This document shows positions 1,808-25,162 of a stretch of 31,374 nucleotides of DNA, piece by piece. The stretch lies in the IMG/VR virus record IMGVR_UViG_3300001242_000069, positions 1 to 31,374 of that record. The stretch is one strand, 5' to 3'. The DNA comes from a virus. The notes under the pieces are model-generated. The model was given only the letters and a program-made list of their open reading frames with translations, was not told the origin of the DNA and did no database searches. How positions within the stretch are numbered: position 1 is the first letter of the stretch; every line of letters begins with the position of its first letter. The position numbers were made by a program, and so were the translations under genes.

Positions 1808-3751
1808 CTACTGCTGCATCCCCGGCACGTTGGGGATGATGTCGCTGGTGGGCGGGGGCTCGGGCTCCGCCTGGGGCTGCACCCCCGCCTGGGCCTGCTG
1901 CATCTGCTGCGCGGTCTGCTGCTCCTGGAGCTGCTTCTGGGCAGCGGCCTTGCGCGCGTCGATCTGGCCGACGAACCGGATGAGCATCTCCAGCTTCTCC
2001 TCCTCCAGATCGCTAGCCTTGCCGCGCTGGTAGTACTCCAGCGCCATCACGCGGCCGAGCTCCAGGTCGTCGAACTGGTCGGGCGGGGTGTAGACTCCCT
2101 CGTCCAGGATCAGGTCCAGGATCTTGGTGAGATAGTCCTCGCTGGCGGCCTGCAAGCCCTCCGCCGCCTCCAGGTCCGGGAAGTCCATCAGCTTCTTTCC
2201 CTGGCGCGGGGTGAAGAAGCCTGCCTGGATGTACTCCTGCACCGTCTCCAGTCGCCCGGCTGGGTCGTTGGGCAGGGAGCTGATGGGCATCACCTGCATG
2301 ACGAAGCAGTCCTCCTCGAGATCGACGTCGCTCCAGTCCAGGTCCTCGAAGTAGACTCGCCCCGGCACCTTCACCATGTAGTGGCCCTTGTGTCGAGCCG
2401 CGATCTCCTTGGCCGTCTCGATGCTCAGCGCCGCCGCGTCCATGTAGAAGCGCTCGTAGGCGTGGCCGATGCTGATGAAGCGCTCAGACTCGATGTTGTT
2501 CAGGGTCCGCATCGCCTTGCCCGACTCCACGCCCTGCGGAAGCTGGCTGCTCGCGCTGAGTTGGCTGATGCCCGCCTGCTCGTACGCCGCATCGCGGAGG
2601 GTCTGGAGGTGCCGGTAGATCTCCGGCGGGACCAGCGGGGGGACGATGTAGTCGGGCTTGGTCCCGCTGTACATCACCAGGGCGCCGACGTCGTTGTTCA
2701 GGTGCTCCTTGACGATCTTGCTCCCGTTCTCCAGCAGGACCTTGAAGGTGCCTCCCAGGTGAAAGCTCCGCTGGATGATGGTCATCAGCTTGTTGACTTC
2801 GAGCTGGATGGGCTGGAGCTGCTCCGCCAAGCCCTGCCCCCAGTACCCGTGCCGCCGCCGCGACCACGTGAACTTGGTGAAGGGGAACCTCCGCCGCTTC
2901 CACTCCTCCGCGAAGAGCGTCGCCCCCTCGATGGTGAGGACGTGCCTGCCGTCGCCGGTGTCCTTTCCGCTGGGGAGGTGCCACGACTCCCGGATGGTGA
3001 TGAGGTCGCTCACGGTGCCGTAGGTGCCGTGAGCGTCCGGGCGGGCGGCGGGGGCCTGGGCCACGGCCTTCAGCAGCTCCTTGAGCAGCTTGGGGCTGCC
3101 CTTGTGCAGCTTGGTCACGAACGCGGAGGCCACCTCCCGGTCGACGTCCTTGCAGCGGTGCAGGTTGCGCGGCTCGCCGTAGAAGGCCTCCAGCTTGTCC
3201 ACCCACAGCTCGTGGGGGAGGACGCGCTCCCAGCCCACCCGGTCCTCGTCGGTAGCGTAGACGTGCATGGGGCCGTCGCCCCAGATGCAGCCGTCCAGCA
3301 TCTGTACTTCGCCCTTCTCGTACGCCTTCTGCTCGTAGAACACGCCCTCCGTGAAGCGGTTCAGCTTCTTGGCCTTGCGCTGCTCCTTGTAGCTGCCGCC
3401 GTTGGTGAGGGCCAGGGGCTTGGGGCGGTTCTTCGTGGTCTTGCTGACGATGGTGTCCACCGCGCTCTGCACCACGTTGTAGCTGATCTTGTCCTTGAGA
3501 ACCGGGTGCGTGGAGCTGAGCTTGCTGAAGCTGGTTCCGCTGGGCCCGCTCACGCCCAGGTTGCCGTACAGCCGCGTGCTGATGAGGTACTGCTTCAGCC
3601 GCTCGTTCTGGTCCTTGCTGATGACCTCCAGGGCAGCGCTCACCGACTGTGCGATCTTGAGGTTCTCCTCCTCCAGCCACCAGCGGGGTCGCGCCTCGAG
3701 CTCCTTGTTCGGGCGCTTCTCGCCCTTGACGTGGAAGTCGCGGAAGTCCAT
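1808..3751 (-). CDS. Portal protein
   Basis: This 647-residue protein forms the dodecameric channel at one capsid vertex, binds terminase during packaging, and joins the head to the tail. The size is in the usual portal range. The N-terminal third has the portal-like stretch KDKISYNVVQSAVDTIVSK, then RFTEGVFYEQKAYEKGEVQMLDG at about 131-153. The middle has the typical QPIQLEVNKLMTIIQRSFHLGG segment. The C-terminus turns Gln/Pro-rich. The start at 3751 has AGAGGAAAG upstream and overlaps the stop of the preceding gene as TGATG. It lies between terminase and scaffold, as expected. Recognition is by general similarity and gene order. Confidence 0.85.
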   Translation of the reverse strand: MDFRDFHVKGEKRPNKELEARPRWWLEEENLKIAQSVSAALEVISKDQNERLKQYLISTRLYGNLGVSGPSGTSFSKLSSTHPVLKDKISYNVVQSAVDTIVSKTTKNRPKPLALTNGGSYKEQRKAKKLNRFTEGVFYEQKAYEKGEVQMLDGCIWGDGPMHVYATDEDRVGWERVLPHELWVDKLEAFYGEPRNLHRCKDVDREVASAFVTKLHKGSPKLLKELLKAVAQAPAARPDAHGTYGTVSDLITIRESWHLPSGKDTGDGRHVLTIEGATLFAEEWKRRRFPFTKFTWSRRRHGYWGQGLAEQLQPIQLEVNKLMTIIQRSFHLGGTFKVLLENGSKIVKEHLNNDVGALVMYSGTKPDYIVPPLVPPEIYRHLQTLRDAAYEQAGISQLSASSQLPQGVESGKAMRTLNNIESERFISIGHAYERFYMDAAALSIETAKEIAARHKGHYMVKVPGRVYFEDLDWSDVDLEEDCFVMQVMPISSLPNDPAGRLETVQEYIQAGFFTPRQGKKLMDFPDLEAAEGLQAASEDYLTKILDLILDEGVYTPPDQFDDLELGRVMALEYYQRGKASDLEEEKLEMLIRFVGQIDARKAAAQKQLQEQQTAQQMQQAQAGVQPQAEPEPPPTSDIIPNVPGMQQ

Positions 3752-4044
3752 CAGCTTTCCTCTTTCTCAGGGGCACAGGTCCCCAGGGGGCAGCCGTGGA
3801 GGCAGCCCATCTCGTTGTGCTCGTCGTAGGGGTGGCCGCAGCGACAGGTGACTTCCTTGCGCGCGGCCTCCAGGGCCTTGACCACGTCGTCCGGATTGGC
3901 GGGCGTGGGGAGGGGCGCGAACGCGGACGGGTCGAGCTCCACTTCCAGCTCACCGCAGCGCAGGCGCCGCGCCTTGTGCTTCAGGGCCAGCTTGAGCAGA
4001 CGCTCCAGGTCGTCGGCCACCTCGCGCTTCGTCTTCTTCACCAT
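3751..4044 (-). CDS. Small Cys/His zinc-binding-like protein
   Basis: This 97-residue protein lies between terminase large subunit and portal. The first 65 residues are charged and helical. The end holds CRCGHPYDEHNEMGCLHGC and a last Cys in LGTC, a Cys/His cluster that looks like a zinc knuckle. The start overlaps the terminase stop by seven bases and the stop shares one base with the portal start, so the three genes are translationally coupled. I do not recognise a named family. Its position hints at a packaging or head-assembly accessory, which is inference. Confidence 0.75.
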   Translation of the reverse strand: MVKKTKREVADDLERLLKLALKHKARRLRCGELEVELDPSAFAPLPTPANPDDVVKALEAARKEVTCRCGHPYDEHNEMGCLHGCPLGTCAPEKEES

Positions 4045-5576
4045 GACCAGTCCCTTTCCATGACCTTCTCTTCCTCAAGACGGGCGAGCTCCATCGCTTC
4101 CATCTCCGCCGCCTCCGCGTCAAACCACTCCTTGGTGCCGGGCTTGGGGGCGCTCTGCGGCTTCGTGCTCAGATACTGATAGCACTTGCGCCACGCATAC
4201 AGGGTAGCGTCAGTACAGTGATTGGGGCAAGCGGGGTGCTCCTCACGCTTGATGCTGTGCTCGTTCCAGATGAGGCTGCCGTACTCCACGGTCAGGTCGT
4301 ATGCCTGCGTCTCGTGGACCTTGATCTTCCCCATGATGAAGTCGCCGTTCATCAGCTCGATGAAGTCGGACTTGCCCGTCTTCATGGTGGCCTGAACCGG
4401 CAGGTCGTGGCGGCGGCGCATCTCCTCCACGGCCTGCTTGTTGCTGCCGTCCACCACCATCGCCTCGATCGTCTGCTTGAACTCGTGCTGGACGCGGTAT
4501 TGGTAGATGCGGATGCGCTCCGCCACCTCGGTGATGTCCATCTTCGCCTTGGCTTCGCAGTAGACCACGTAGAGGCAGGGGTCGTTGTCGTGGTAGGCGC
4601 AGAGGCTGAAGGCGGAGGGGTCGTTGTAGCCGAGGTCCACCCCAAGGATGAAGTGCCAGTCACCCTTGTCGTACTTGGGGAGGGCGCCAGACCACAGGTT
4701 CCTCTCCCGGTTGAAGCGGTACACCAGGGCGCTCTCGTTGATGCACCAACGCCCGTAGTAGTTCTGCTGGAAGAGGGGCGTCTCGTCGATGAGCGGGTTC
4801 GCCAGCTTCAGGTCGTCGATCTCGGCCTGCCACTTCTCCGCCATGTACGGATTGTGGAAGGCGCTCCAGGCGTGCCCAGACCAACCCTTCGCCTTCCAGG
4901 TGTGCGGCGTGGTCGGGTCCTGGCCCTGCGTCAGCTCGTAGTAGAGGCCCTTGTGGATATCGCTGGGGGTGCCGATGAGGTAGATGTCGCCACGGTAGTC
5001 GGCCACGCTGGGCTTGAGCGTGCCGTAGACGAGCTCCTCCAGGTTGATGGAGTACTGGCTCGCCTCGTCGATGACGATGCGCCGATACTTCTGGCCAAGC
5101 ATCTTGGCCTTCTCCTTCTCGCTGCTGTCGGCGCCCAGCAGGTAGATGACGCTGTTGATGGGGTCGGGGAGGGTGCAGGTCAGGTCGTTCTCGTGGAACT
5201 TGCAGTTCAGCCCCTCCTCCTTGTCGATGACCTTGAGCACGTCCTTCCACATGATCTTCTTGGCGGAGTCGCGTGTCAGGGCGACGTAGAGGCAGTTGCA
5301 GCCGGGGGTGTAGTACGCCGCCCGGAGCAGCCCCAGCCCCATCCCAAAAGACTTCCCCGCTCGGCGGGTGCAGAGACCCACCTTGAGCGGGGAAGTGTCG
5401 TTGAGGAAGCGGGTCTGCGCGGTGAAGTCTAGGTCGAGGAACGATGGCCTATGCCTCTTCTGCGCCTCCCGAATCGTCAGGATCAACTGAGCCCTCTCCA
5501 GATCGCTCAGCTTCTTCTGCAGACTTGCGGGCAGAGCGCCGGAAGACGGCTTCGGCCTTCTTGACGAGTTCTTCAT
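4038..5576 (-). CDS. terL: Terminase large subunit (ATPase and nuclease)
   Basis: This 512-residue protein is the packaging motor that pumps DNA through the portal and cuts concatemers. Walker A is CTRRAGKS at 69-76, and Walker B with the catalytic Glu is RIVIDEA at 166-172. A coupling-like IGTP is at 201-204. The RNase H-like nuclease half begins at LGVDLGYNDPSAF (Asp314), followed by MVVDG (Asp376) and CTDA (Asp456), a plausible metal-binding triad. The ATG start has GGAGAAGC upstream but lies 128 bases inside TerS. No later ATG precedes the ATPase, although a TTG shortly downstream is possible. Identification is firm. Confidence 0.95.
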   Translation of the reverse strand: MKNSSRRPKPSSGALPASLQKKLSDLERAQLILTIREAQKRHRPSFLDLDFTAQTRFLNDTSPLKVGLCTRRAGKSFGMGLGLLRAAYYTPGCNCLYVALTRDSAKKIMWKDVLKVIDKEEGLNCKFHENDLTCTLPDPINSVIYLLGADSSEKEKAKMLGQKYRRIVIDEASQYSINLEELVYGTLKPSVADYRGDIYLIGTPSDIHKGLYYELTQGQDPTTPHTWKAKGWSGHAWSAFHNPYMAEKWQAEIDDLKLANPLIDETPLFQQNYYGRWCINESALVYRFNRERNLWSGALPKYDKGDWHFILGVDLGYNDPSAFSLCAYHDNDPCLYVVYCEAKAKMDITEVAERIRIYQYRVQHEFKQTIEAMVVDGSNKQAVEEMRRRHDLPVQATMKTGKSDFIELMNGDFIMGKIKVHETQAYDLTVEYGSLIWNEHSIKREEHPACPNHCTDATLYAWRKCYQYLSTKPQSAPKPGTKEWFDAEAAEMEAMELARLEEEKVMERDWSW

Positions 5577-6605: not shown

Positions 6606-6953
6606 CTAGATGAAGCTGCGGACGACGTTCTGGAACAGCGTGTCCTTGAGCTTCTGATCCTCGGGAAGCTCCTCGTAGGGCACGAAGCAGGGGTGCTCTT
6701 TCTTCTCCGGATCCTTGACGGGTCCGTACTTCCACCCCGCCGCTTTCTTCTCGGCGAGCCAGGAGTCGTGAGAGACGGAGGGCGGAGCGCTCGGGTGCTC
6801 CAGGGTGTGTCGCACACCGTTGATGGCGGAGTCGCGCTGCCACTGCGGCGCTTCGTCCCACGGAAGCTGGCTCTTGTCCCCCAGGGCGAGGCAGTAGGCG
6901 CGGTTCGCTTCGTGAGTGATGCGAGCGATGTTCTCGACGAGTAACTTGGCCAT
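6606..6953 (-). CDS. RyR-domain protein
   Basis: This 115-residue protein is a single ryanodine receptor repeat (RyR) domain. The pattern is IARITHEANRAYC near the start, then WDEAPQWQRDSAINGVRHTL, then HDSWLAEKKAAGWKYG, and a closing PYEELPEDQKLKDTLF with a terminal helix. These are the standard RyR blocks seen in bacterial and phage stand-alone copies. In bacteria such domains are proposed to bind nucleotide-like or NAD-derived ligands, so a role in host-signal interference is possible. It sits beside an Acb2-like gene. Domain recognition is strong. The biological role is inference. Confidence 0.82.
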   Translation of the reverse strand: MAKLLVENIARITHEANRAYCLALGDKSQLPWDEAPQWQRDSAINGVRHTLEHPSAPPSVSHDSWLAEKKAAGWKYGPVKDPEKKEHPCFVPYEELPEDQKLKDTLFQNVVRSFI

Positions 6954-7220: not shown

Positions 7221-7712
7221 CTAGGACTGCGGGGTGACCTGCAAGTACGGATCGTAGCGGAGGCCGGACCACTTGACGTGAGCCCAGGGGTGGATGGCGC
7301 TGGTCCAGTGGGAGTGGCAGCAGGCGGAGGGGGAGAGTTGCCCGAGAAGCCGAGTGGCCACGCCCATCCGCCGCCACGCGCGCTTCACGTAGACCCAGTG
7401 GATGACGGGAGGCGCCGGAGCGGGCGGTGGGAGAGAGGAGGTGTTCAGCAGGGCCGGGGGCAGCTCCAGCGCTGCGAAGCCGATGATCACAGCGGGTGAA
7501 TCAGGGAGGCAGGCGACTGGGAGGGCGCAGCGGTCACGCAGCCGGGCAATCACCTCGTGGTGTTTGCGGTAGTAGAGCTCGGCCGGGACGCGGGAGACGT
7601 CCTGGTTGTTGTACCGGTAGCTCTTCAGCCAAGTGGAGAAGATGAAGGCGAAGTCGTCCGGCTCAGCGGGCCTGACGAGGAACTTGGCTTCTACAATGAC
7701 GTCTTGATCCAT
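7221..7712 (-). CDS. GNAT-family acetyltransferase-like protein
   Basis: This 163-residue protein begins with FLVRPAEPDDFAFIFSTWLKSYR, a common opening of phage GNAT proteins. The acetyl-CoA binding motif A is VIHWVYVKRAWRRMGVATRLL at about 103-123, with the R-x-x-G-x-A/G signature. A Pro-rich insertion (LPPPAPAPP) precedes it. The C-terminal part is shorter than in typical GNATs and contains several Cys/His/Trp. It is the first gene of the leftward late transcript and its end supplies the repeated junction element. The substrate is unknown. Acetylation of a host or virion protein is speculation. Confidence 0.75.
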   Translation of the reverse strand: MDQDVIVEAKFLVRPAEPDDFAFIFSTWLKSYRYNNQDVSRVPAELYYRKHHEVIARLRDRCALPVACLPDSPAVIIGFAALELPPALLNTSSLPPPAPAPPVIHWVYVKRAWRRMGVATRLLGQLSPSACCHSHWTSAIHPWAHVKWSGLRYDPYLQVTPQS

Positions 7713-7898
7713 GCGCTACAAGCTAGCACCGCTGACGGACGAGGTGCAAGGGGCTTGGCTGGGAGGTCTGGGCTCGGGGCTCGGGGCTCGGGGAAGGTTC
7801 CTCGGTCTTCGTTCTCGGGACTTCGTCCATAGAACTCCTCTCCAATAAGCCGGAGAGTGAGCAGGTGTTGTGCCAAACCAAAAACGGGCACAAAAAAA
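7713..7898. promoter_or_regulatory. Leader region of the leftward late operon
   Basis: This 186-bp gene-free stretch contains a 7-bp direct repeat GGGCTCG three times in tandem (7770-7793). It also contains an inverted repeat CTCTCC/GGAGAG with an 8-nt loop (7838-7857). No convincing -35/-10 pair was found, so the late promoter may need a phage-encoded factor. Confidence 0.4.
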
Positions 7899-7926
7899 GC
7901 CCGGCCCCCTGGGCAGGGGGCCGGGC
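7899..7926 (-). terminator. Intrinsic terminator of the GA-free unit
   Basis: A perfect 12-bp GC-rich stem with a 4-nt loop is followed on the minus strand by seven T residues (A-run at 7892-7898 on the plus strand). It closes the leftward transcript of the two genes at 7943-8831. Confidence 0.9.
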
Positions 7927-7942
7927 AGCTACGCACTACGCG

Positions 7943-8251
7943 CTACGGGGCGCTACAGCCGCAACACCCGTGGTGCCCCAGGTGGCAAAGGGGGCAGGGG
8001 CCCGTGTGGCACTGCGGGGCGTTGGGCTTGGGGCCCGTGCCCAACAACCAGGGGCACTGCGGGGGCCACGGGTTGCTGTTGGGGTAGCGGCAGGTGGGGC
8101 AGCCGCCCGCTATGGGGCAAACGCCGTAGGGTATGGCTTGCGCGGGGTGGTAGTGTGGTGCTTGGCAGGTGGGGCAGGCGGTACAGGTGGGGCAGCCGGG
8201 GGCCGTGGTGCCGGGCTGGTGGGGGCCAGGGTGGCAAGTGCATTGGGCCAT
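7943..8251 (-). CDS. Cys/Pro/His-rich protein of the GA-free unit
   Basis: This 102-residue protein of unknown family starts at ATG 8251 (MAQCTCHPGPHQPG). It has repeated C-P-T-C and C-x-x-C pairs (CPTCTACPTC, GGCPTC, GPCPLCHLG) and ends in CCGCSAP. The spacing suggests several zinc or other metal sites in a small, otherwise unstructured protein. It contains no Asp, Glu or Phe, because GAN and TTC codons are excluded by the GA/TC avoidance of this region. The ribosome binding site is TTAGGT, also without GA. A longer frame to 8296 runs through a terminator hairpin and is not preferred. Confidence 0.6.
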   Translation of the reverse strand: MAQCTCHPGPHQPGTTAPGCPTCTACPTCQAPHYHPAQAIPYGVCPIAGGCPTCRYPNSNPWPPQCPWLLGTGPKPNAPQCHTGPCPLCHLGHHGCCGCSAP

Positions 8252-8266
8252 GGGGTACCTAACAAA

Positions 8267-8294
8267 GCGCCCCGGCCAGTGTTGGCCGGGGCGC
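8267..8294 (-). terminator. Hairpin between the two GA-free genes
   Basis: A perfect 12-bp stem with a 4-nt loop is followed on the minus strand by TTTGTT. It has the same geometry as the terminator at 7899-7926. It lies between the genes at 8310-8831 and 7943-8251, so it may act as an attenuator or processing site. Confidence 0.75.
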
Positions 8295-8309
8295 ACTAGG
8301 GGTTAACCG

Positions 8310-8831
8310 CTACTTGCTGGGCAGGGTGCGGGGGGCCGCGCCGCCCAGGGCAACCAGCCCGTGGGCCGCGTCCCACGCCAAGTTGGCGTTGGCGTTGGTG
8401 CAGTGGCCCAGCAAGGGCATGGCGCCGCTGGCCACGTACGCCTGCACGGCCGCGCGGTAGGCGCCCACGGTGGCGCACCCGGCGTACAGCAACCACGCCT
8501 GTTGGCTGGCGCTGCGGGGCTGGCCGGGCTTGGGGTTGCCGCGCTTGGGGTTGCCCCCGCTGTACAACACGGCCAGGGCCACGTCCCCGGCCAGGGCCGC
8601 CACGCCCGCCAGCGCCAAGTACCGGGGGGCGGGGCTGGCCTGCGGGGCCACGCTGGCGGGCGGCTGCCCCAGGGGCGCGTTGCCCAGCGCGGCGGCCGTG
8701 CTGGGGCTGGCCGGGGCCACGGGCGCGGCGGCCGGGGCCTGCTTGGCGGGCGCCTGGGGCTTGGCGTTGGGCACGGGCACGCGCTTGCCCTTGCCAGTGG
8801 TGGTGGTGGTGGTGGTGGTGTGCTTGGCCAT
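8310..8831 (-). CDS. Ala/Pro-rich protein with hydrophobic segments, GA-free unit
   Basis: This 173-residue protein of unknown family starts MAKH followed by eight Thr (an 8-unit trinucleotide repeat), then a Pro/Ala/Gln-rich linker to about residue 68. Two hydrophobic Ala/Leu/Gly segments follow, YLALAGVAALAGDVALAVLY at about 70-89 and WLLYAGCATVGAYRAAVQAY at about 112-131. They may be membrane or helical-bundle segments. It has only two Asp and no Glu, Ile or Phe. The ribosome binding site AAAGGT before ATG is consistent with GA avoidance. Transcription is leftward, supported by two minus-strand terminators. No function can be assigned. Confidence 0.6.
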   Translation of the reverse strand: MAKHTTTTTTTTGKGKRVPVPNAKPQAPAKQAPAAAPVAPASPSTAAALGNAPLGQPPASVAPQASPAPRYLALAGVAALAGDVALAVLYSGGNPKRGNPKPGQPRSASQQAWLLYAGCATVGAYRAAVQAYVASGAMPLLGHCTNANANLAWDAAHGLVALGGAAPRTLPSK

Positions 8832-9027
8832 GTTGTTACCTTTGTATGGTACGGGTTAACTGCAAGTGGGGTGGCACGCCCCTAGGCCGGGGCGCGTTGC
8901 TGCAACGTTGCCGGGCTGTAGTGCAGCCGGGGTGCCAAGTGCCAAGCACCCTGCCCCACGGGCCGCTTGCTAATGGTAGTGCGCGGGCAAAGCAGCCTAG
9001 CACACACCTTGCTTACACACTACTTTA

Positions 9028-9046
9028 GGTGCGTAAAGTACGCACC
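9028..9046. repeat. Perfect 19-bp palindrome in the desert
   Basis: GGTGCGTAAAGTACGCACC is an 8-bp perfect inverted repeat around a 3-bp centre, about 200 bp upstream of the gene at 8831. It looks like an operator for a dimeric repressor. It shares GTAAAG with the palindrome at 9537-9555. Confidence 0.7.
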
Positions 9047-9080
9047 CACCCCGCGCACTACATTACGCACCCCCGATTCT

Positions 9081-9374
9081 GACGAATTTGGAACTTAGAT
9101 CTTAGATCTTATCGCATCCGGCTGTCAACTTTCCCGGATCTTCAGATTCGACGACCCGAGAACTGAGATCCCGCCAACCAAGAGCCAAGATCTCCGCTCC
9201 CAGGTCCCAAGATCCTCGAACCACGAGCCAAGATCTACGATCAGTCGAGGAAACGACGAATTCGGACCTGGGAATGTAGATCTACGCTCTCAGACTGTCA
9301 AACTCGTCCGCGATCGTATGAGGAAATGACGAATTCAGATCTTGGAGTCCAAGAACTCAGGATCTGACTGTCAA
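9081..9374 (-). repeat. Three copies of GACGAATTY-N-CTGTCAA with 40-41 base pitch
   Basis: The first half-element starts at 9081, 9255 and 9328 (plus strand GACGAATT then T or C). CTGTCAA starts at 9122, 9295 and 9368, so start-to-start spacing is 41, 40 and 40. The sequence between is not conserved. On the minus strand CTGTCAA reads TTGACAG, a -35-like box. Two more copies lie at 11862 and 11911. Confidence 0.85.
9273..9301 (-). promoter_or_regulatory. Candidate leftward promoter
   Basis: Minus strand TTGACA (9296-9301), a 17-bp spacer, then TACATT (9273-9278). It points toward the GA-free genes about 440 bp away. The motif copy at 9081-9128 gives TTGACA with an 18-bp spacer and TAAGAT. The third copy lacks a clear -10. 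Confidence 0.45.
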
Positions 9375-9536
9375 GTTCGTGTTTCCCGGACACTTCGAGC
9401 TCTGGCGGAGGGAGATGGGACTCGGCTCTTCGCACTTCGCTCTTGGATGGACGAGGATTGATCGTCGTACCTCGTTCACTCGTATGATCGATACGTCGAG
9501 CTCGGGTGGCGGATCGTCGATCGGGCTTTAGGATCA

Positions 9537-9555
9537 GTGTAAAGGAACTTTACAC
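9537..9555. repeat. Perfect 19-bp palindrome
   Basis: GTGTAAAGGAACTTTACAC is an 8-bp perfect inverted repeat around GAA, operator-like, in the gene-free island. Confidence 0.7.
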
Positions 9556-9586
9556 GCAAACTCGACGAATCTGCTTAATGACTGGA

Positions 9587-9614
9587 GTAGCACGATTGTC
9601 AAGAATCGTGCTAC
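9587..9614. repeat. 11-bp perfect inverted repeat with 6-nt loop
   Basis: The arm GTAGCACGATT and its exact complement flank GTCAAG. No T-run follows on either strand, so it is not a typical terminator. It lies just beyond the terminator at 9629-9656. Confidence 0.7.
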
Positions 9615-9628
9615 GCGAGCAAAGAAAA

Positions 9629-9656
9629 GCCCCGCCCCTGTGCTAGCGGGCGGGGC
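9629..9656 (-). terminator. Terminator of the leftward early operon
   Basis: A 9-bp GC-rich stem (GCCCCGCCC and its complement) with a 10-nt loop is followed on the minus strand by TTTTCTTT. It lies 22 bp past the stop of the gene at 9678. Confidence 0.88.
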
Positions 9657-13348: not shown

Positions 13349-14248
13349 ATGGACCCCATCAACCTGAAGGAAGTGCTGGAGCTGCACGCCAAGTATCTGC
13401 GCGGAGATCAAGACGGCAAGCGCGCCGACCTGCGCAGCGCCAACCTGCGCAGCGCCGACCTGCGCAGCGCCAACCTGAGCGACGCCAACCTGAGGAGCGC
13501 CAACCTGCGCAGCGCCAACCTGCGCAGCGCCGACCTGAGCGGCGCCGACCTGAGCGGCGCCGACCTGAGCGATGCCGACCTGAGCGATGCCAACCTGCGC
13601 AGCGCCGACCTGCGCAGCGCCAACCTGCGCAGCGCCAACCTGCGCAGCGCCGACCTGCGCAGCGCCAACCTGAGCGACGCCAACCTGAGCGATGCCGACC
13701 TGAGGAGCGCCAACCTGCGCAGCGCCGACCTGCGCAGCGCCAACCTGAGCGATGCCAACCTGCGCAGCGCCGACCTGAGCGGCGCCGACCTGAGCGATGC
13801 CGACCTGAGCGGCGCCAACCTGAGGAGCGCCAACCTGCGCAGCGCCGACCTGCGCAGCGCCAACCTGCGCAGCGCCGACCTGCGCAGCGCCGACCTGAGC
13901 GGCGCCGGCCTGCCTCACTTCCAGCTCCCTCCGCAAGAGGGGGAGTTCATCGCGTGGAAGTCCGTCCTGCACGGCCACGAGCACACGACGCTCAAGCTGC
14001 TCATCCCCGCCGATGCCAGGCGGACCAGCAGCCTCGTCGGACGCAAGTGCAGGGCGAGCAGGGTGAAGGTGCTGGAAGCCCTCGGCACGGAGGCCAAGGA
14101 GTTCACCTCCCAGTACGCGCCCACTTGCACCTACCGCGTGGGCGAGGTGGCTGAGCCCGACGGCTACAGCGACGACATCCGCGTGGAGTGCGCCCAAGGC
14201 ATTCACTTCTTCATGACGCGCGCAGAGGCCGACGAGTTCAGGATGTAG
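13349..14248 (+). CDS. Pentapeptide-repeat protein with DUF5758-like C-terminus
   Basis: This 299-residue protein has an N-terminal 27-residue helix, then about 32 A(D/N)LxS/G pentapeptides (to about 187). These predict a right-handed quadrilateral beta helix about 32 rungs' worth of side strands long. The C-terminal domain has LKLLIPADARRTSSLVGRKC, then RASRVKVLEALG, and ECAQGIHFFMTRAEADEF, as in DUF5758. Pentapeptide proteins can mimic DNA and shield gyrase (MfpA/Qnr), but many do neither. The coding DNA is a 15-bp near-tandem repeat and prone to length change. The start follows AAGGAGCTGAGTAC. Confidence 0.9.
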   Translation: MDPINLKEVLELHAKYLRGDQDGKRADLRSANLRSADLRSANLSDANLRSANLRSANLRSADLSGADLSGADLSDADLSDANLRSADLRSANLRSANLRSADLRSANLSDANLSDADLRSANLRSADLRSANLSDANLRSADLSGADLSDADLSGANLRSANLRSADLRSANLRSADLRSADLSGAGLPHFQLPPQEGEFIAWKSVLHGHEHTTLKLLIPADARRTSSLVGRKCRASRVKVLEALGTEAKEFTSQYAPTCTYRVGEVAEPDGYSDDIRVECAQGIHFFMTRAEADEFRM

Positions 14249-18783: not shown

Positions 18784-19213
18784 ATGAACTGCAAGGACTG
18801 CGATGGCGGATGCAGCGCGGCCGGCGAGGACAGGGTGCCGATTGGCAGTGCCGGAAGGGGAACCTGCCAGGGCTTCAAGCCGCGCCCGAAGGTGCAGGGT
18901 GTGAAGTACGACATGAACTTCGAAGGGCTGAAAGCGGAGGTCGTGCGGCTGCGCGAGGAGGCGAAGCTGCTGAAGCAGCAGCTCGCGACGCAGAAGCGCG
19001 TGGCGCAGGAGGCGTTGGAGGACGCACAGTACGCGAAGAAGGACGCCGACCGCCTGCGCGGCGGACGCGTATTGAAGCGCCGCGTGGTGGAGGTTCGCCC
19101 GGTGGCCGCCTTGATCTTGCGCGGCCCAGCCGCGCAAGATCAAGGCGATGATAGCGAAGCAGAAGGCGCGGGGCTATGCGTGGCGCGCGTCGTACCCGAA
19201 GGGAGGCAAGTGA
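18784..19213 (+). CDS. Cys-rich/coiled-coil protein with disturbed reading frame
   Basis: ATG 18784 opens MNCKDCDGGCSAAGEDRVPI (a Cys cluster with a fourth Cys in GTCQG), followed by a coiled coil EVVRLREEAKLLKQQLATQK. As it stands, the frame runs into the dCMP deaminase at 19213 and would make a 312-residue fusion. Removing 22 nt (one arm plus loop of the inverted repeat at 19107-19147) restores a coherent end, RPVAPRKIKAMIAKQKARGY, to a TGA at 19211-19213 that overlaps the next ATG. The restored protein would be 135 residues. Function unknown. Confidence 0.65.
19107..19147. repeat. 19-bp perfect inverted repeat, 3-nt loop, inside a gene
   Basis: The left arm is 19107-19125, the loop CCA and the right arm 19129-19147, with every base paired. 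It lies about 65 bp before the deaminase start. It looks like a foldback (templated inverted) duplication because deletion of 22 nt restores the frame of the host gene. Confidence 0.95.
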
Positions 19214-19719
19214 TGCTGAAGAGCAAGCTGGGCGTGCCGGAGTCGGTGATGGCCATCTGCCGGTTGTGGGCGGAGAGCCGGAGCAAGGACCCCTCGACCA
19301 AGGTGGGGGCGGCCATCTACGACGCCGCGACGGGCAGCGTTCACCTCGGCTACAACGGCTTCCCGCCTGGGGTGGAGGAGGACGAGTCGCTGTGGAACAA
19401 CCGCACGGGCGAGGTGGACGACAAGCTGGGGCACATGTTCTACCTCACCAAGTACGACCTCGTCATCCACGCGGAAGTCAACGCCGCCCGCAAGGCGCTG
19501 CTGGCCGGGGTCAACATGGGCAGCATCAACACTGCCCTCATCTGCACGCACATCCCCTGCCCGCAGTGCTTCAAGGACGTGGTGCTGGCCAACGGCATCA
19601 ACACGGTGCTCTACGCGGAGGACACCTACGCCAGTCGCAGCCCCCGCGACAAATGGCTGATGGAGCAGCTCATCCACCTTGGGCGCGTGGACGTGGCGAA
19701 GCTGGAGGAGGTGCTATGA
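19213..19719 (+). CDS. dCMP deaminase
   Basis: This 168-residue zinc enzyme converts dCMP to dUMP, feeding thymidylate-type synthesis. Zinc and catalytic motif HAE at 86-88 (VIHAEVNAARKALL) and PCPQC at 115-119 (Cys116, Cys119) match the dCMP/CMP deaminase family. A substrate-side GYNGFPPGVEE is also typical. The ATG has GGGAGG seven bases upstream and overlaps a TGA. Upstream DNA carries the inverted repeat that may fuse it to another protein. It sits first in a nucleotide-metabolism island with a TS-family enzyme, which suggests dUMP supply. Confidence 0.88.
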   Translation: MLKSKLGVPESVMAICRLWAESRSKDPSTKVGAAIYDAATGSVHLGYNGFPPGVEEDESLWNNRTGEVDDKLGHMFYLTKYDLVIHAEVNAARKALLAGVNMGSINTALICTHIPCPQCFKDVVLANGINTVLYAEDTYASRSPRDKWLMEQLIHLGRVDVAKLEEVL

Positions 19720-20366
19720 AGTACGACGCCTACAAGACTTACTGGGTCCGTCCCGGTACGATGGACAAGTACGTCATCAACGAGCTCAAGGGCTACCAGC
19801 GCCTCCCGCTGGGCAAGTCCGACGTGGTGCTGGACATCGGCGCCAACATCGGCAGCTACGCGCAGTGGGCGGGGGAGCAGTGCAAGTCCGTGACGGCGGT
19901 GGAGCCCGAGCCCGAGAACTACGCGCTGCTCAAGCGGAACATCGGCCACAACGTCCGCCCCATGAACTGCGCGGTGGTGGGTGACAGCTACCAAGGGGCG
20001 ACCATCCCCCTGTGGACCAGCCCTGGCCCGAACAAGGGGAGCCACAGCACGGTCCCCACGCGCGGGCGGGAGCCCGTGCCGGTGACGGTGGTCCGCATGG
20101 GGGCGCTGCTCAAGCTGTGTAGCTTCACCGTGCTCAAGATGGACTGCGAGGGCGCCGAGTACGACCTGCTGTTGGGCCGGGCGCTGCCCAAGCGGCTCCA
20201 GGCGGTGCTCATCGAGTACCATCTACAGAAGAAGGGGCAGTGGGAGGCGGCCAACCTGTTGGACGTGGAGTTGCAGGAGCAGGGCTTCAGGTGGCTCAAG
20301 CCGCCGAAGCTGGACAACGAGAAGTTGTGGCACACGACGGCCATCTACGTACGAGGTGAGCGATGA
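19716..20366 (+). CDS. FkbM-family methyltransferase
   Basis: This 216-residue class I SAM methyltransferase has motif I VVLDIGANIGSYA at about 38-50, a second block AVEPEPENYALLKRNI, then VLKMDCEGAEYDLL, the FkbM signature. FkbM enzymes usually methylate sugar or amino-sugar hydroxyls. Placed next to a glycosyltransferase and a thymine pyrophosphorylase-like gene, it might act on modified DNA or a phage glycan. Overlaps: ATGA at both ends. Confidence 0.85.
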   Translation: MKYDAYKTYWVRPGTMDKYVINELKGYQRLPLGKSDVVLDIGANIGSYAQWAGEQCKSVTAVEPEPENYALLKRNIGHNVRPMNCAVVGDSYQGATIPLWTSPGPNKGSHSTVPTRGREPVPVTVVRMGALLKLCSFTVLKMDCEGAEYDLLLGRALPKRLQAVLIEYHLQKKGQWEAANLLDVELQEQGFRWLKPPKLDNEKLWHTTAIYVRGER

Positions 20367-21316
20367 AGGCTAGCAGCGAAGGCATCAAGAAGTTCCTCTA
20401 CTACATCCACGAGCGCGAGAACATCCGGCTCAAGAAGGAGAGCGGGGCGCCGTGGCCCTGGACCAAGGATGAGATCCTGCAGAAGTACAGCTTCACCAAT
20501 GTCCGCCGCGTGAACGACCGCACGACGCAGGCCTTCCTCGCCATCTACAAGGCCAACGTCAAGCCGGGGAAGTACGAGCAGGCGTTGCTCAACTGCGCTA
20601 CCTTTAGGTACTTCGGAACGGCAGGGTTCGCACAGGCTGTTGGCTGGCAGGCAAGGTGGCAGGCTGCCCGCGTGCTGCGCGTGGCCAAGGAGCGCCTCCA
20701 GAGCCCTGTGGAGCGGGTGCGCGGGCCCCACAAGCGGGTGCGCGTGCGGCAGGAGGTGTTCACCGGAGCCTACGTCATAACCAACGGCGGCCGGAAGGAG
20801 CCCAAGGAGGATGTGGTGGTGGACTACCTGAGCGGCTTGGCGGCGGCCTACAAGGAGCGGCTGGCTCCGCTGCTCAAGTTCAAGAGCCCGAGCTGGGCGG
20901 CGCTGGGGGAGGAGATGATGAAGCTGGAGGGGTTCGGTGGCACCGGCTTCATGGTGAAGGAGGTCCTCCAGGACTTCATCCTCTGTTACCCCGGTCTGTT
21001 CTGGGACGAGGAGACCTGGACCCCGGTGGGGCCGGGGGCGCGGCGTGGGCTCAACTACATCGCGGGCCGCGACCCGGACTTCACGCTCAACTCGCACACG
21101 TGGCTGGAGGAGGTCGTGGCCCTCCGCGTGCTGGTGAACCAGAACTGGACGAAGTGGTTCCCGAACAGCGGCACGCTCAGCGCTCACGACGTCCAATTCT
21201 GTCTCTGTGAACACGCAAAGCGAATGAAGGTGGTGACTGGCGTGGGCAAGCCGCGCTCCACCTACCTCCCGCCCCATCAGCGCCCCCATGAGCGCAACGG
21301 TATCGAGATAGCCTAA
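20363..21316 (+). CDS. Alpha-glutamyl/putrescinyl-thymine pyrophosphorylase-like (HMUDK helical family)
   Basis: This 317-residue protein has an N-terminal block, FLYYIHERENIRLKKESG then PWPWTKDEILQKYSFTNVRR, NDRTTQ. I recognise it from the 5-hmdU kinase helical / alpha-glutamyl/putrescinyl-thymine pyrophosphorylase family. That family builds hypermodified thymine in phages such as phiW-14 and SP10 by acting on phosphorylated 5-hydroxymethyluracil in DNA. The middle has LEGFGGTGFMVKEVLQDF, typical of the helical part. No separate P-loop kinase is visible, so the activated intermediate source is unclear. Confidence is on family, less on reaction. Confidence 0.72.
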   Translation: MKASSEGIKKFLYYIHERENIRLKKESGAPWPWTKDEILQKYSFTNVRRVNDRTTQAFLAIYKANVKPGKYEQALLNCATFRYFGTAGFAQAVGWQARWQAARVLRVAKERLQSPVERVRGPHKRVRVRQEVFTGAYVITNGGRKEPKEDVVVDYLSGLAAAYKERLAPLLKFKSPSWAALGEEMMKLEGFGGTGFMVKEVLQDFILCYPGLFWDEETWTPVGPGARRGLNYIAGRDPDFTLNSHTWLEEVVALRVLVNQNWTKWFPNSGTLSAHDVQFCLCEHAKRMKVVTGVGKPRSTYLPPHQRPHERNGIEIA

Positions 21317-21717: not shown

Positions 21718-21911
21718 TCACCATGCAAGAGCAGATGTTGGACGAGGTCATCAAGATGCGGCAGAGCACCGACGCGGCGCAGCGCCACGCGCTGGAGGCG
21801 GAGCTGGCTGATAGGCGACAGCACTTGGCGGCGGGCGAGGCCAGCTTGGTCAAGACGAGGGAGCGGATACAGGAACTGGAGGCGCAGTTGAAGGAGGCAA
21901 GCAAGTGATCA
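21698..21911 (+). repeat. 23-bp direct repeat at two gene junctions
   Basis: Identical 23-bp copies lie at 21698-21720 and 21889-21911. Each encodes the C-terminal KEASK, a stop and the next gene's GTG start with AGGAGG as ribosome binding site. Confidence 0.92.
21714..21908 (+). CDS. Short coiled-coil protein
   Basis: This 64-residue protein starts at GTG 21714, seven bases after AGGAGG. ATG 21723 is less well placed. It is MITMQEQMLDEVIKMRQSTD, then a heptad-rich, Ala/Glu/Arg-rich coiled coil ending in KEASK. The same KEASK end and ribosome binding junction occur one gene earlier. No function assigned. Confidence 0.62.
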   Translation: MITMQEQMLDEVIKMRQSTDAAQRHALEAELADRRQHLAAGEASLVKTRERIQELEAQLKEASK

Positions 21912-22675
21912 ACGTATTCATCCCGACGATGAACCGAGTGGACCGGCAGTGGACCTACGACCGACTGCCCGACGCCGTGAAGAGGCACACGAAGCTGGTG
22001 TGCCCGCCCAGCGAGGCGCCCAGCCACCAGAGCAGGGGGCGCAACGTGCTCTGGTGCAAGGCCAAGGGCATCACCGCCACGCGCGACTACATCCTGCGCT
22101 ACTGCGCGGAGCAGGATATCCAGAAGTTCGTCATGCTGGACGACGACCTGACCATCCAGGTGCGACGCGCCGACATGAAGATCAAGAACGCCACGGACCA
22201 GCAGATGGTGGGCGCCTTCAACTGGCTGGAGAAGACGCTCGACGTGCGCGCCCACTGCGGCTGGATGGTGCGGACCGCCTATTGGGCCAGCACGGAGATG
22301 TGGCTGGAGTGCAAGCGGATGATGTACGCGCTGGCCTACAACGTGCCGATGGTGATGGACGCCAAGGCCACCTTCGGCAAGGGGCTGGCCAAGGACGTGG
22401 CCACGATGGAGGACTTCAACATGACTCTGCAGCTCCTGTCCGCCGGGCTGCCCAACCGCCTCAGCCTGGAGTACCGACTGAACGCAGGCCCGAGCAACGT
22501 CCAGGGCGGGTGCTCCACCTGGAGGACCACCCCCTGCCAGACGGACAGTGCCCGCAGGCTGGCTGCGATGTACCCCCACGCCGTGACGGTGCGGGAGAAG
22601 AAGGCGTGGACCGGCATGGAGGCTGGGATGATGGACGTGAGGGTGCAGTGGGCCAAGGCGCTGAAGAAGGGGTGA
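21905..22675 (+). CDS. Glycosyltransferase, GT-A-like
   Basis: This 256-residue protein begins at GTG 21905 with MINVFIPTMNRVDRQWTYDR, a strand start typical of GT-A folds. RNVLWCKAKGITATRDYILR precedes KFVMLDDDLTIQ (residues 75-84). The DDD at 79-81 fits the DxD metal/nucleotide-sugar motif. A later FGKGLAKDVATMEDFNMTLQ looks like the acceptor/catalytic ED region. Position in a modification island suggests sugar transfer to modified pyrimidines (TAGT-type), but transfer to a phage glycan is possible. Confidence 0.72.
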   Translation: MINVFIPTMNRVDRQWTYDRLPDAVKRHTKLVCPPSEAPSHQSRGRNVLWCKAKGITATRDYILRYCAEQDIQKFVMLDDDLTIQVRRADMKIKNATDQQMVGAFNWLEKTLDVRAHCGWMVRTAYWASTEMWLECKRMMYALAYNVPMVMDAKATFGKGLAKDVATMEDFNMTLQLLSAGLPNRLSLEYRLNAGPSNVQGGCSTWRTTPCQTDSARRLAAMYPHAVTVREKKAWTGMEAGMMDVRVQWAKALKKG

Positions 22676-22679
22676 AGTG

Positions 22680-23138
22680 ATGGAGATGAACGAAATGAAG
22701 CTGTGCAAGCAAGCTGAGGTTGGCCGCGAAGTCATCAAGAAGGCTCACATCCTGCTGAGGAAGGACGACAGCGCGACGGGCGTGCTGATCGGAACGGCGG
22801 CGCTGTGGATGTTGGGGTTCGACGTCATCCCGGGCGACATCGACTTCCTGGTGACCAAGGCCCCGAGTGGCGAGGGCATCGAGGCCAAGTTGGCGAAGGG
22901 CTCCACCGAGGGCAGCGCGACAACGGAGATCGACGGCATCAAGGTGGACTACATCCCCGCGAGCGGGCTGCGCCAACGCTATCTCAACGCCGGCAGGGCG
23001 TACATGATCGATGGCGTGCCGGTGGCCGCGCTGGATGACATCCTCGGGCTGAAGCGGCTGGCCGACAGGGCGCAGGACAGGCACTTCTTCGGGCTGTGGA
23101 ACTACGGAATGGTCGGCATTCGCAGGGAGGTGAAGTGA
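22680..23138 (+). CDS. Nucleotidyltransferase-like (minimal NTase fold) protein
   Basis: This 152-residue protein has LIGTAALWMLGFDVIPGDID at about 36-55, with GTA (38-40) and the DxD pair (Asp53, Asp55) of the minimal nucleotidyltransferase fold. A KVDYIP strand with a further Asp, then LDDILGLKRLADRAQDRHF, resembles other predicted NTases. The start at 22680 is used rather than the GTG at 22677 because ATG is standard here. It overlaps the TS gene as TGATG. Substrate unknown. A role in nucleotide or sugar activation is inferred from context. Confidence 0.62.
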   Translation: MEMNEMKLCKQAEVGREVIKKAHILLRKDDSATGVLIGTAALWMLGFDVIPGDIDFLVTKAPSGEGIEAKLAKGSTEGSATTEIDGIKVDYIPASGLRQRYLNAGRAYMIDGVPVAALDDILGLKRLADRAQDRHFFGLWNYGMVGIRREVK

Positions 23139-24226
23139 TGGAGATCCACGCACGAGGTGTCAACGACGCGCTGCGGAAGGTGCTGTTCATGCTGCTGGAG
23201 TACGACGAGGGTGAGGACAAGGGCGAGGGTACGAGCTGGCACCGGCAGACTAGCCGCAACGGGGACACCCTGGAGTTCGACGAGCCGGTGGCCACGTACT
23301 ACGAACGCCCCCTGGAGCGGGTGCTGTTCTACAAGGAGCGGGATGCCAACCCCTTCCTCCACCTGTTCGAGTCTCTGTGGCTCCTCGCCGGTCGCGACGA
23401 TGTGCGGTTCATGGAGTACTTGGTCCCCAAGTTCCGCAACTACAGCGACGACGGCCACAGGATGCAGGGGAGCTACGGCTACCGTTGGCGCAAGGCGTTC
23501 GGGGTGGACCAGCTCGACTTCCTGGTGAACCACCTGAAGCAGAAGCCCGACAGTAGGCGCGCAGTGCTCCAGATGTGGCGCCCCCCGTACGACCTGCACG
23601 GAGTGGACTACGGGACGCACGTGGAGGCGGGGATCGACAGCACTGACATACCCTGCAACACGAACGCCTACTTCAAGGTGAGGGACGGGCGGCTTAACAT
23701 GACCGTCTGCAACCGCAGCAACGACCTCATCTGGGGCGCCTACGGGGCCAACGTCGTCCACTTCTCCATCCTCCAGGAGTACATGGCCGCCCGCCTGGGC
23801 TTGGAGGTGGGCACCTACGTCCAGTTCTCGGACAGCCTCCACGTCTACACCGGGGGCGAGGGCGGCAAGGTGTGGGAGCGCATCAAGGCGGGGTGGAGCC
23901 CGAGCGTCTACCAGGAGCGCAGCCCCTACGCGCTGGGGGCGGTGAAGCCGCAGCCCATGTTCGTCGACCCGGACAACTCCTGCCACCGCCAGGACCAGCT
24001 CCACTACTGGCACCAGGACCTGGAGACGTTCTTCCTGCTGTTTGACGGCGGGCAGGAGGTGCAGGTCAGCAGCTTCACGCACCCGTGGTGGAAGTTCGTG
24101 GCCGCGCCCCTGTGGAACGCCTGGAAGAACCGGGACGCGGGCTACCTGGAGGGCTGCATCGCCACCGACTGGAAGCTGGCGGCGGCGACGTGGCTGGCGG
24201 CGCACCCGAAGAAGGAGGCCAAGTGA
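23138..24226 (+). CDS. Thymidylate synthase-family protein
   Basis: This 362-residue protein matches the TS/dUMP hydroxymethylase family. The catalytic Cys is in TDIPCNTNAY (Cys173), the phosphate-binding Arg pair at 140-141 in SRRAVLQMW, and CNRSNDLIWGAYGANVVHFS is the conserved dUMP-contacting block. Active sites look intact. Classic TS has PCH after the Leu/Pro, but here it is PCNTN. Whether it makes dTMP or 5-hydroxymethyl-dUMP cannot be told by eye. A hydroxymethylase role would suit the pyrophosphorylase-like gene. ATG start overlaps a TGA. C-terminus is unusually long. Confidence 0.88.
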   Translation: MEIHARGVNDALRKVLFMLLEYDEGEDKGEGTSWHRQTSRNGDTLEFDEPVATYYERPLERVLFYKERDANPFLHLFESLWLLAGRDDVRFMEYLVPKFRNYSDDGHRMQGSYGYRWRKAFGVDQLDFLVNHLKQKPDSRRAVLQMWRPPYDLHGVDYGTHVEAGIDSTDIPCNTNAYFKVRDGRLNMTVCNRSNDLIWGAYGANVVHFSILQEYMAARLGLEVGTYVQFSDSLHVYTGGEGGKVWERIKAGWSPSVYQERSPYALGAVKPQPMFVDPDNSCHRQDQLHYWHQDLETFFLLFDGGQEVQVSSFTHPWWKFVAAPLWNAWKNRDAGYLEGCIATDWKLAAATWLAAHPKKEAK

Positions 24227-24441: not shown

Positions 24442-24650
24442 GTGCAGAACTGGAACCCGCGCGGCTGGGCAAGGCACGCCCCGTCCGCGAGACGGCCAAG
24501 GCCCTGCTCGTCTACCTGGAGTCAGACGGGGAGGAGCACTGGATCCCGAAGTCAGTCATCCACGACGACAGCGAGGTGTACAGCATGAAGGCTGGTGACG
24601 GAGAGCTCATCGTTGAGGGCTGGTGGGCGGAGAAGGAGGGGCTCTCGTGA
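24438..24650 (+). CDS. Small conserved phage protein
   Basis: This 70-residue protein starts at GTG 24438. It contains ETAKALLVYLESDGEEHWIP then KSVIHDDSEVYS, a pattern I know from small phage proteins (HWIPKSVIHDDS) of unknown role. It sits between the Trp-rich protein and the HD hydrolase with GTGA overlaps. May act with nucleotide metabolism by position only. Confidence 0.7.
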   Translation: MSAELEPARLGKARPVRETAKALLVYLESDGEEHWIPKSVIHDDSEVYSMKAGDGELIVEGWWAEKEGLS

Positions 24651-25162
24651 ACTTCAAGCGCCTGGAGGCCCTGCGCGAAGCAGGCCACGTGAAGCGGCTG
24701 CACGCCGTCCCCACGCTCTACAACCACACCATCGCGGAGCACGTCTACGGGGCGCAGTGCATCGCCATGGAGCTGATGTACGCCCTGCCCGCCGCCAGGA
24801 TGGAGGTGGTGCTGTATGCCCTCCTTGTCCACGACGCGCCGGAGGTGTGGACCGGCGACGTGCCTGCCCACATGAAGAAGCGACACCCCACGATGAGTCA
24901 GGACCTGGAGCTGGAGGAAGTGGAGTGGAGAATCAGCAACAGCGTGCTGATGCCCGACATGAACAAGTGGGAGAGGCTGGTCGTCCAAGCCGCTGACCGC
25001 CTGGACCTCGCCATGCACCTCTTGTACGAGCGGCAGATGGGCTGCCGCCACCCCCGCCACACGGAGGTGTTCAACCGAGTGCTGGACTACGTGGTGCAGG
25101 AGTGTGGGGAGCTGAAGGGCGTGCCGGAGCTGGTGGACTACCTGAAGGGAGAGTGGCGATGA
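24647..25162 (+). CDS. HD-domain 5'-deoxynucleotidase-like hydrolase
   Basis: This 171-residue protein starts at GTG 24647. The HD motif residues are His32 (AEHVYGAQ), HD at 62-63 in LLVHDAPEVWTGDVP with Glu66 and Asp71, and Asp in QAADRLDLAMHL. This is the YfbR-like 5'-deoxynucleotidase pattern. It would remove phosphate from dNMPs, possibly clearing the normal dTMP pool or tuning dUMP. It overlaps both neighbours. Confidence 0.83.
   Translation: MNFKRLEALREAGHVKRLHAVPTLYNHTIAEHVYGAQCIAMELMYALPAARMEVVLYALLVHDAPEVWTGDVPAHMKKRHPTMSQDLELEEVEWRISNSVLMPDMNKWERLVVQAADRLDLAMHLLYERQMGCRHPRHTEVFNRVLDYVVQECGELKGVPELVDYLKGEWR

Follow-up and report, generated by a model that had tools for sequence, protein, structure and literature searches.

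Introduction

Thymidine-hypermodified phages of the M6, ViI, phiW-14 and SP10 type have a dUMP hydroxymethylase and a PF18723 gene in common. For M6, ViI and phiW-14, the hypermodified T was placed in TG or TC by inference from restriction data (PMC6449724), and after kinase treatment, 5hmdU DNA was protected only against enzymes whose sites contain TG or TC (PMC7653180). Bulky or charged modifications in the major groove can stop transcription, which 5hmdU itself does not do (PMC11550810), and E. coli RNA polymerase reportedly transcribes less when 5hmdU is phosphorylated (PMC7653180).

The GA-motif 7-deazaguanine phages (CAjan, Iggyvirus) likewise have a dinucleotide modification motif, spelled with the same letters as the sequence considered below. 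Restriction-site avoidance is also selection against short DNA words, usually genome-wide and directed at words of 4-6 bp. High GATC density in non-coding DNA is typical of Dam/GATC regulatory clusters such as oriC and phase switches.

Here we describe a phage locus that resembles each of these systems in part. The window, that is, the whole stretch of DNA that was analysed, comprises 31,374 nucleotides (positions 1 to 31,374 of IMG/VR virus record IMGVR_UViG_3300001242_000069). No GA/TC desert is present in M6, ViI or phiW-14, whereas this phage combines a glycosyltransferase with a putative transcription unit purged of TC. Unlike the CAjan/Iggyvirus type, it has no DpdA/TGT, and CAjan has no comparable desert. 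In contrast to restriction-site avoidance, a single dinucleotide has been removed almost completely from a single unit. Unlike Dam/GATC clusters, the GATC excess beside this unit lies within promoter-like repeats, in a phage that has no Dam-family gene. We found no prior description of such deserts in the open-access papers searched.

Results

Genes for thymidine hypermodification

The genome, joined from two IMG/VR contigs, is a closed circle of 60,189 bp; genes beyond the window were called by a simple codon-usage script. As judged from domain matches, it encodes thymidine hypermodification, with a thymidylate-synthase-like dUMP hydroxymethylase (23138-24226; PF00303, E = 2.2e-20), a protein with the helical domain of the 5-hmdU DNA kinase (20363-21316; PF18723, E = 1.8e-27) and a TET-associated glycosyltransferase (21905-22675; PF20691, E = 5.4e-12). 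The PF18723 family is also present in M6, ViI and phiW-14. A dCMP deaminase domain protein (18784-19719), an FkbM-type methyltransferase (19716-20366) and an HD/YfbR-like nucleotidase (24647-25162) lie on the same plus strand. A simple motif scan recognised no separate P-loop kinase.

A desert of GA and TC with two genes

The desert covers 1,215 bp (7860-9074), in which the plus strand has no GA and two TC, compared with about 150 GA/TC expected. Its depletion score is 118.7, and the maximum across sixty simulated genomes is 11.6. Since TG/CA is not depleted, the avoidance is specific to TC/GA. The second IMG/VR contig has an identical desert, and an assembly slip of one contig is thus no explanation; the samples may be related, so the second contig is not independent biological evidence. 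Mutational TC-to-TT decay (DddA-like) was ruled out by the GC content of 71.5% and the preserved coding. The desert is also no general intergenic trait of the kinase phages, as GA/TC in this genome is somewhat lower between genes (0.82 versus 1.11) and yet far above zero.

Two genes on the minus strand occupy the desert. Gene A (8310-8831), an ORF with a GC3 of 0.98, encodes 173 aa with two Asp and no Glu, and gene B (7943-8251) encodes a Cys/Pro-rich protein of 102 aa with CxxC motifs and neither Asp nor Glu. Both exceptions to the desert fall in gene A, as GAC codons with an identical CGTCCC context. Even the putative ribosome sites are GA-free, with AAAGGT at gene A and TTAGGT in place of AGGA. 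Gene A is followed by an intrinsic-terminator-like hairpin (8267-8294, minus strand) and gene B by a predicted intrinsic terminator with a 12-bp stem and a T7 tail (7899-7926, minus strand); the desert ends 31 nt beyond this tail. Searches of Pfam, PHROGs, phages and IMG/VR found no relatives of genes A and B outside the same phage, and the desert proteins belong to no recognised family. The AlphaFold models were not used, with a mean pLDDT of 51 for gene A and 40 for a paralog family of the relatives. The terminase large subunit gene (terL; 4038-5576), on the minus strand like genes A and B, is located downstream of the desert at a distance of 2.3 kb.

Immediately downstream of the desert is a GNAT acetyltransferase gene (7221-7712). 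Thymidine hypermodification pathways are known to include acetyltransferases, and one is annotated next to the kinase in phage Ab18.

A GATC-dense island with repeats and predicted promoters

The desert has an abrupt edge at 9075, exactly where the GATC-dense island starts, as the initial annotation of this DNA had pointed out. Its count of 17 GATC in 9098-9535, six of them as AGATCT, is reproduced; these 438 bp would hold 1.2 at the genome average, and 438-bp windows taken elsewhere in the closed genome, away from the island area, hold at most 6. Since dinucleotide-preserving shuffles of 9075-9560 reach only 7.2 ± 2.1 GATC (17 in 0 of 5000), the excess goes beyond GA/TC richness. The same shuffles gave 0.5 AGATCT and 0.01 CCAAGATC against 6 and 3 present. 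GA+TC is about doubled in 9075-9522 (109 vs 55 expected), and the GA/TC-rich segment score of 21.5 is the highest among the genomes compared at that stage, followed by 8.7. The island was also described as gene-free and low in GC, which agrees with our finding of no ORF longer than 50 aa and a GC content of 51.6% versus 65%. Its extent had been given as 9075-9628; we keep the GATC-dense left part, 9075-9560, and leave out 9561-9628, an ordinary hairpin/terminator stretch that is not rich in GATC. A terminator-like hairpin predicted at 9631-9650 (minus strand) ends the operon upstream of the island. Rfam gave no match.

On the minus strand, the island has three imperfect copies of a repeat of about 73-80 bp, built from the blocks TTGACAG, AGATCT-like and AATTCGTC. 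Copy 1 (9071-9150) has TTGACAG, AGATCT and AATTCGTC, copy 2 lies at 9245-9324, and copy 3 (9318-9397) is without a -10 match. Two of the three form sigma-70-like promoters by pattern match, TTGACA-17-TACATT (9273-9301) and TTGACA-18-TAAGAT (9099-9128), where 0.3 would be expected; the -10 of the latter ends 24 bp before the desert. Both are on the minus strand and aimed at the desert genes, and their -35 elements and -10-adjacent sequences contain TC sites. Three CCAAGATC sites with spacings of 22 and 21 bp were counted at 9185-9235. Since the repeats and promoters point at the desert genes, we read the island as probably the control region of the desert transcription unit.

This reading upholds the general suggestion of the initial annotation that the island is regulatory, and its more specific proposals fared less well. 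For a Dam-type methylation switch, the phage lacks the expected gene (MethyltransfD12, PF02086), leaving only a host enzyme as a candidate. For an origin, the island does contain direct repeats in AT-richer DNA, as iteron origins do; GC skew is uninformative, and its cumulative local maximum near 9 kb tracks gene strand and desert composition. A terminase site finds little correspondence in the relatives, only some of which have the desert upstream of terL. Nor is the island conserved among related phages, an outcome that the initial annotation had itself set as speaking against its reading: we found no counterpart, the island is unique to this phage, and it is the desert beside it that recurs.

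Deserts in related phages

In each contig we searched every dinucleotide class for its most depleted segment, taking a score of at least 20 as a desert. GA/TC deserts were found in 18 of 43 kinase contigs and in none of the 10 long controls or the 77 shorter ones (portal-relatives), a comparison in which most kinase contigs exceed the short controls in length, the long controls number only 10, the desert genomes are related rather than independent, and the comparison genomes are mostly metagenomic contigs. Among 74 kinase loci recruited by alignment, GA/TC reached a score of at least 20 in 8 loci and every other class in at most 1. In one kinase-free control (G048, 3507-4419, L333), AG/CT is depleted over 913 bp (28 seen, 105 expected), possibly low-complexity sequence or another avoided motif.

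Nine strong deserts, including that of this phage, hold together 49 GA/TC against about 1,050 expected. The numbers seen and expected are 4 and 167 in G023, 1 and 153 in G027, 11 and 154 in G038, 1 and 102 in G026, 11 and 106 in G034, 7 and 81 in G033, 1 and 65 in G028, and 11 and 74 in G030. Each of the nine includes one small gene whose product has 0-3 acidic residues, and a hairpin usually follows the gene stop, the desert ending soon after it; in G038 and G023, the desert runs well past the hairpin. The weaker deserts are for the most part intergenic. Candidate promoters lie inside the desert in some relatives, and the best matches of this phage lie in the TC-rich island.

A glycosyltransferase (TAGT or GT4-type) is present in all nine strong-desert genomes versus 15 of the 34 other kinase contigs (P = 0.0025), a link that is suggestive only, since the genome set is phylogenetically non-independent. 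The TAGT/GT4-type models found no glycosyltransferase in M6, ViI and phiW-14. These three kinase phages and Ab18 have no desert, and G021, G022, G024 and G025 possess both kinase and glycosyltransferase, yet have none either; a desert is therefore not obligatory. The terminase relatives L003-L006, which are too distant, also have none. No strong desert was seen in the whole record of MW202897 or in the terL regions of HTVC027P, HTVC023P and DSL-LC04, in the last of which GA/TC is weakly depleted over a stretch upstream of terL.

Some observations concern the gene content of these genomes. MW202897 (L361, 1-2694) encodes a pyrimidine hydroxymethylase and a TAGT-like glycosyltransferase and has no GA/TC desert. 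The hypermodification cluster includes a radical SAM/SPASM gene in G026 (32262-33281, L274), G033, G034, G038, G014 and G016, within the examined set only in GA/TC-desert contigs.

Graded purging and the avoided context

One gene family of the group made up of G025, G036, G030, G028, G026 and G034 (the G025-G036 group) has a terL-proximal copy with graded GA+TC contents per 100 bp of 9.6 in G025, 7.4 in G036, 1.6 in G030, and 0 in G028, G026 and G034, to which G009 adds a value of 4.0; the upstream paralogs of this copy have 9 to 13. Since the protein motif is mostly kept in G030 and G028 and partly in G026 and G034, the gene has been maintained through the removal of its GA/TC. G030 has such a pair upstream of terL (L306:13933-14352 and L306:14800-15246), one copy normal and one purged of GA/TC, with the family motif LGHSxKxP...GGYSPSS.

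The few dinucleotides left also differ between phages. TCG accounts for 10 of the 11 exceptions in the G038 desert (P = 7e-8), and GTCCC is enriched among all desert exceptions (5 seen, 0.29 expected). Such phage-to-phage differences in the avoided context would be the trace expected of enzyme sequence specificity.

Discussion

We consider it fairly probable that the desert is a transcription unit purged of, and hence free from, TC-targeted hypermodification. The phage's own thymidine hypermodification would target T in TC on either strand, and the purge would keep this unit without the bulky, probably glycosylated, T that the rest of the genome carries. The likely gain is that RNA polymerase could read the unit on fully modified virion DNA and so provide the small proteins early. 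The desert with its gene layout, the pathway genes, the recurrence among relatives and the graded purging are shown; the identity of the modified base as T in TC, the polymerase that would benefit and the roles of the proteins are inferred from sequence. The island, with its tandem repeats and sigma-70-like promoters, would serve as the control region of the unit, and the TC sites in these promoters may let them respond to modification. If TC is modified, the island would be the most densely modified DNA of the genome, and its promoters would thus be modification-sensitive.

The main rival keeps the same modification logic and differs in the benefit: the unmodified unit would outlast the attack of host modification-dependent (type IV) nucleases on the modified genome and still be expressed, with anti-restriction factors as its products. 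The units do appear self-contained, each with its own terminator, and the desert proteins diverge strongly between phages, like arms-race proteins. No similarity to anti-restriction proteins was found, however, and the conserved family of the G025-G036 group is also present as copies of normal composition, which makes this reading rather unlikely.

Somewhat less likely still, the desert may be needed unmodified as DNA, as a packaging (pac/cos) or replication-start site, with the genes as passengers. Upstream of terL, it is no more than about 3 kb away in this phage, in G026, G028, G030 and G034, in G038 and in G009, but its distance from terL is about 10 kb or more in G027, G033 and G035, and this varying position makes packaging or origin roles less likely. 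Moreover, a packaging site needs less than a kilobase complete with terminator and maintained gene.

Avoidance at the transcript level is improbable. The avoidance might be directed against an mRNA-modifying enzyme such as CmdT (PMC11618068). CmdT reportedly acts at GA, and selection against such an enzyme would fit a desert that, in this phage, starts about 24 bp downstream of a predicted -10; against it, avoidance of TC on the sense strand is just as strict as that of GA, and the deserts of several relatives extend beyond promoter-like sites, to 220-390 bp upstream of the gene. Least probable of all is that the modified base is the G of GA, as a 7-deazaguanine, for although strand-symmetric avoidance is compatible with either base and GA-motif dPreQ0 phages have been published (Olsen 2023, as cited in PMC11780129), the TGT/DpdA family (PF01702) is absent from this phage and from the 12 relatives tested, and the best GA/TC segment of CAjan is weak (14.6).

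Returning to the purged, hypermodification-free unit, we tentatively extend it, at somewhat less than even confidence, to a wider proposal: many phages with TC-targeted, glycosylated T may keep one TC-purged unit that is read first, despite the acid-free protein this imposes, and the TC-dense promoter array of the present phage may act as a hypermodification-sensitive switch. If so, part of the DNA of a hypermodified phage would have to go without the protection that the phage gives itself, and sequence alone would suffice to read, for uncultured viruses, which context their DNA-modifying enzymes target. Deserts would also single out small proteins of rapid divergence with a likely role early in infection or in countering defence, and the handling of heavily modified templates by host RNA polymerase would become testable.

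Elsewhere in the window, an RyR-domain protein (6606-6953; PF02026, E = 5.5e-12) is encoded near the terminase genes. Several PHROGs match a repeat-rich gene of 299 aa (13349-14248) with a 720-bp TA-free run, and phage contig G001 both starts and stops within this gene.
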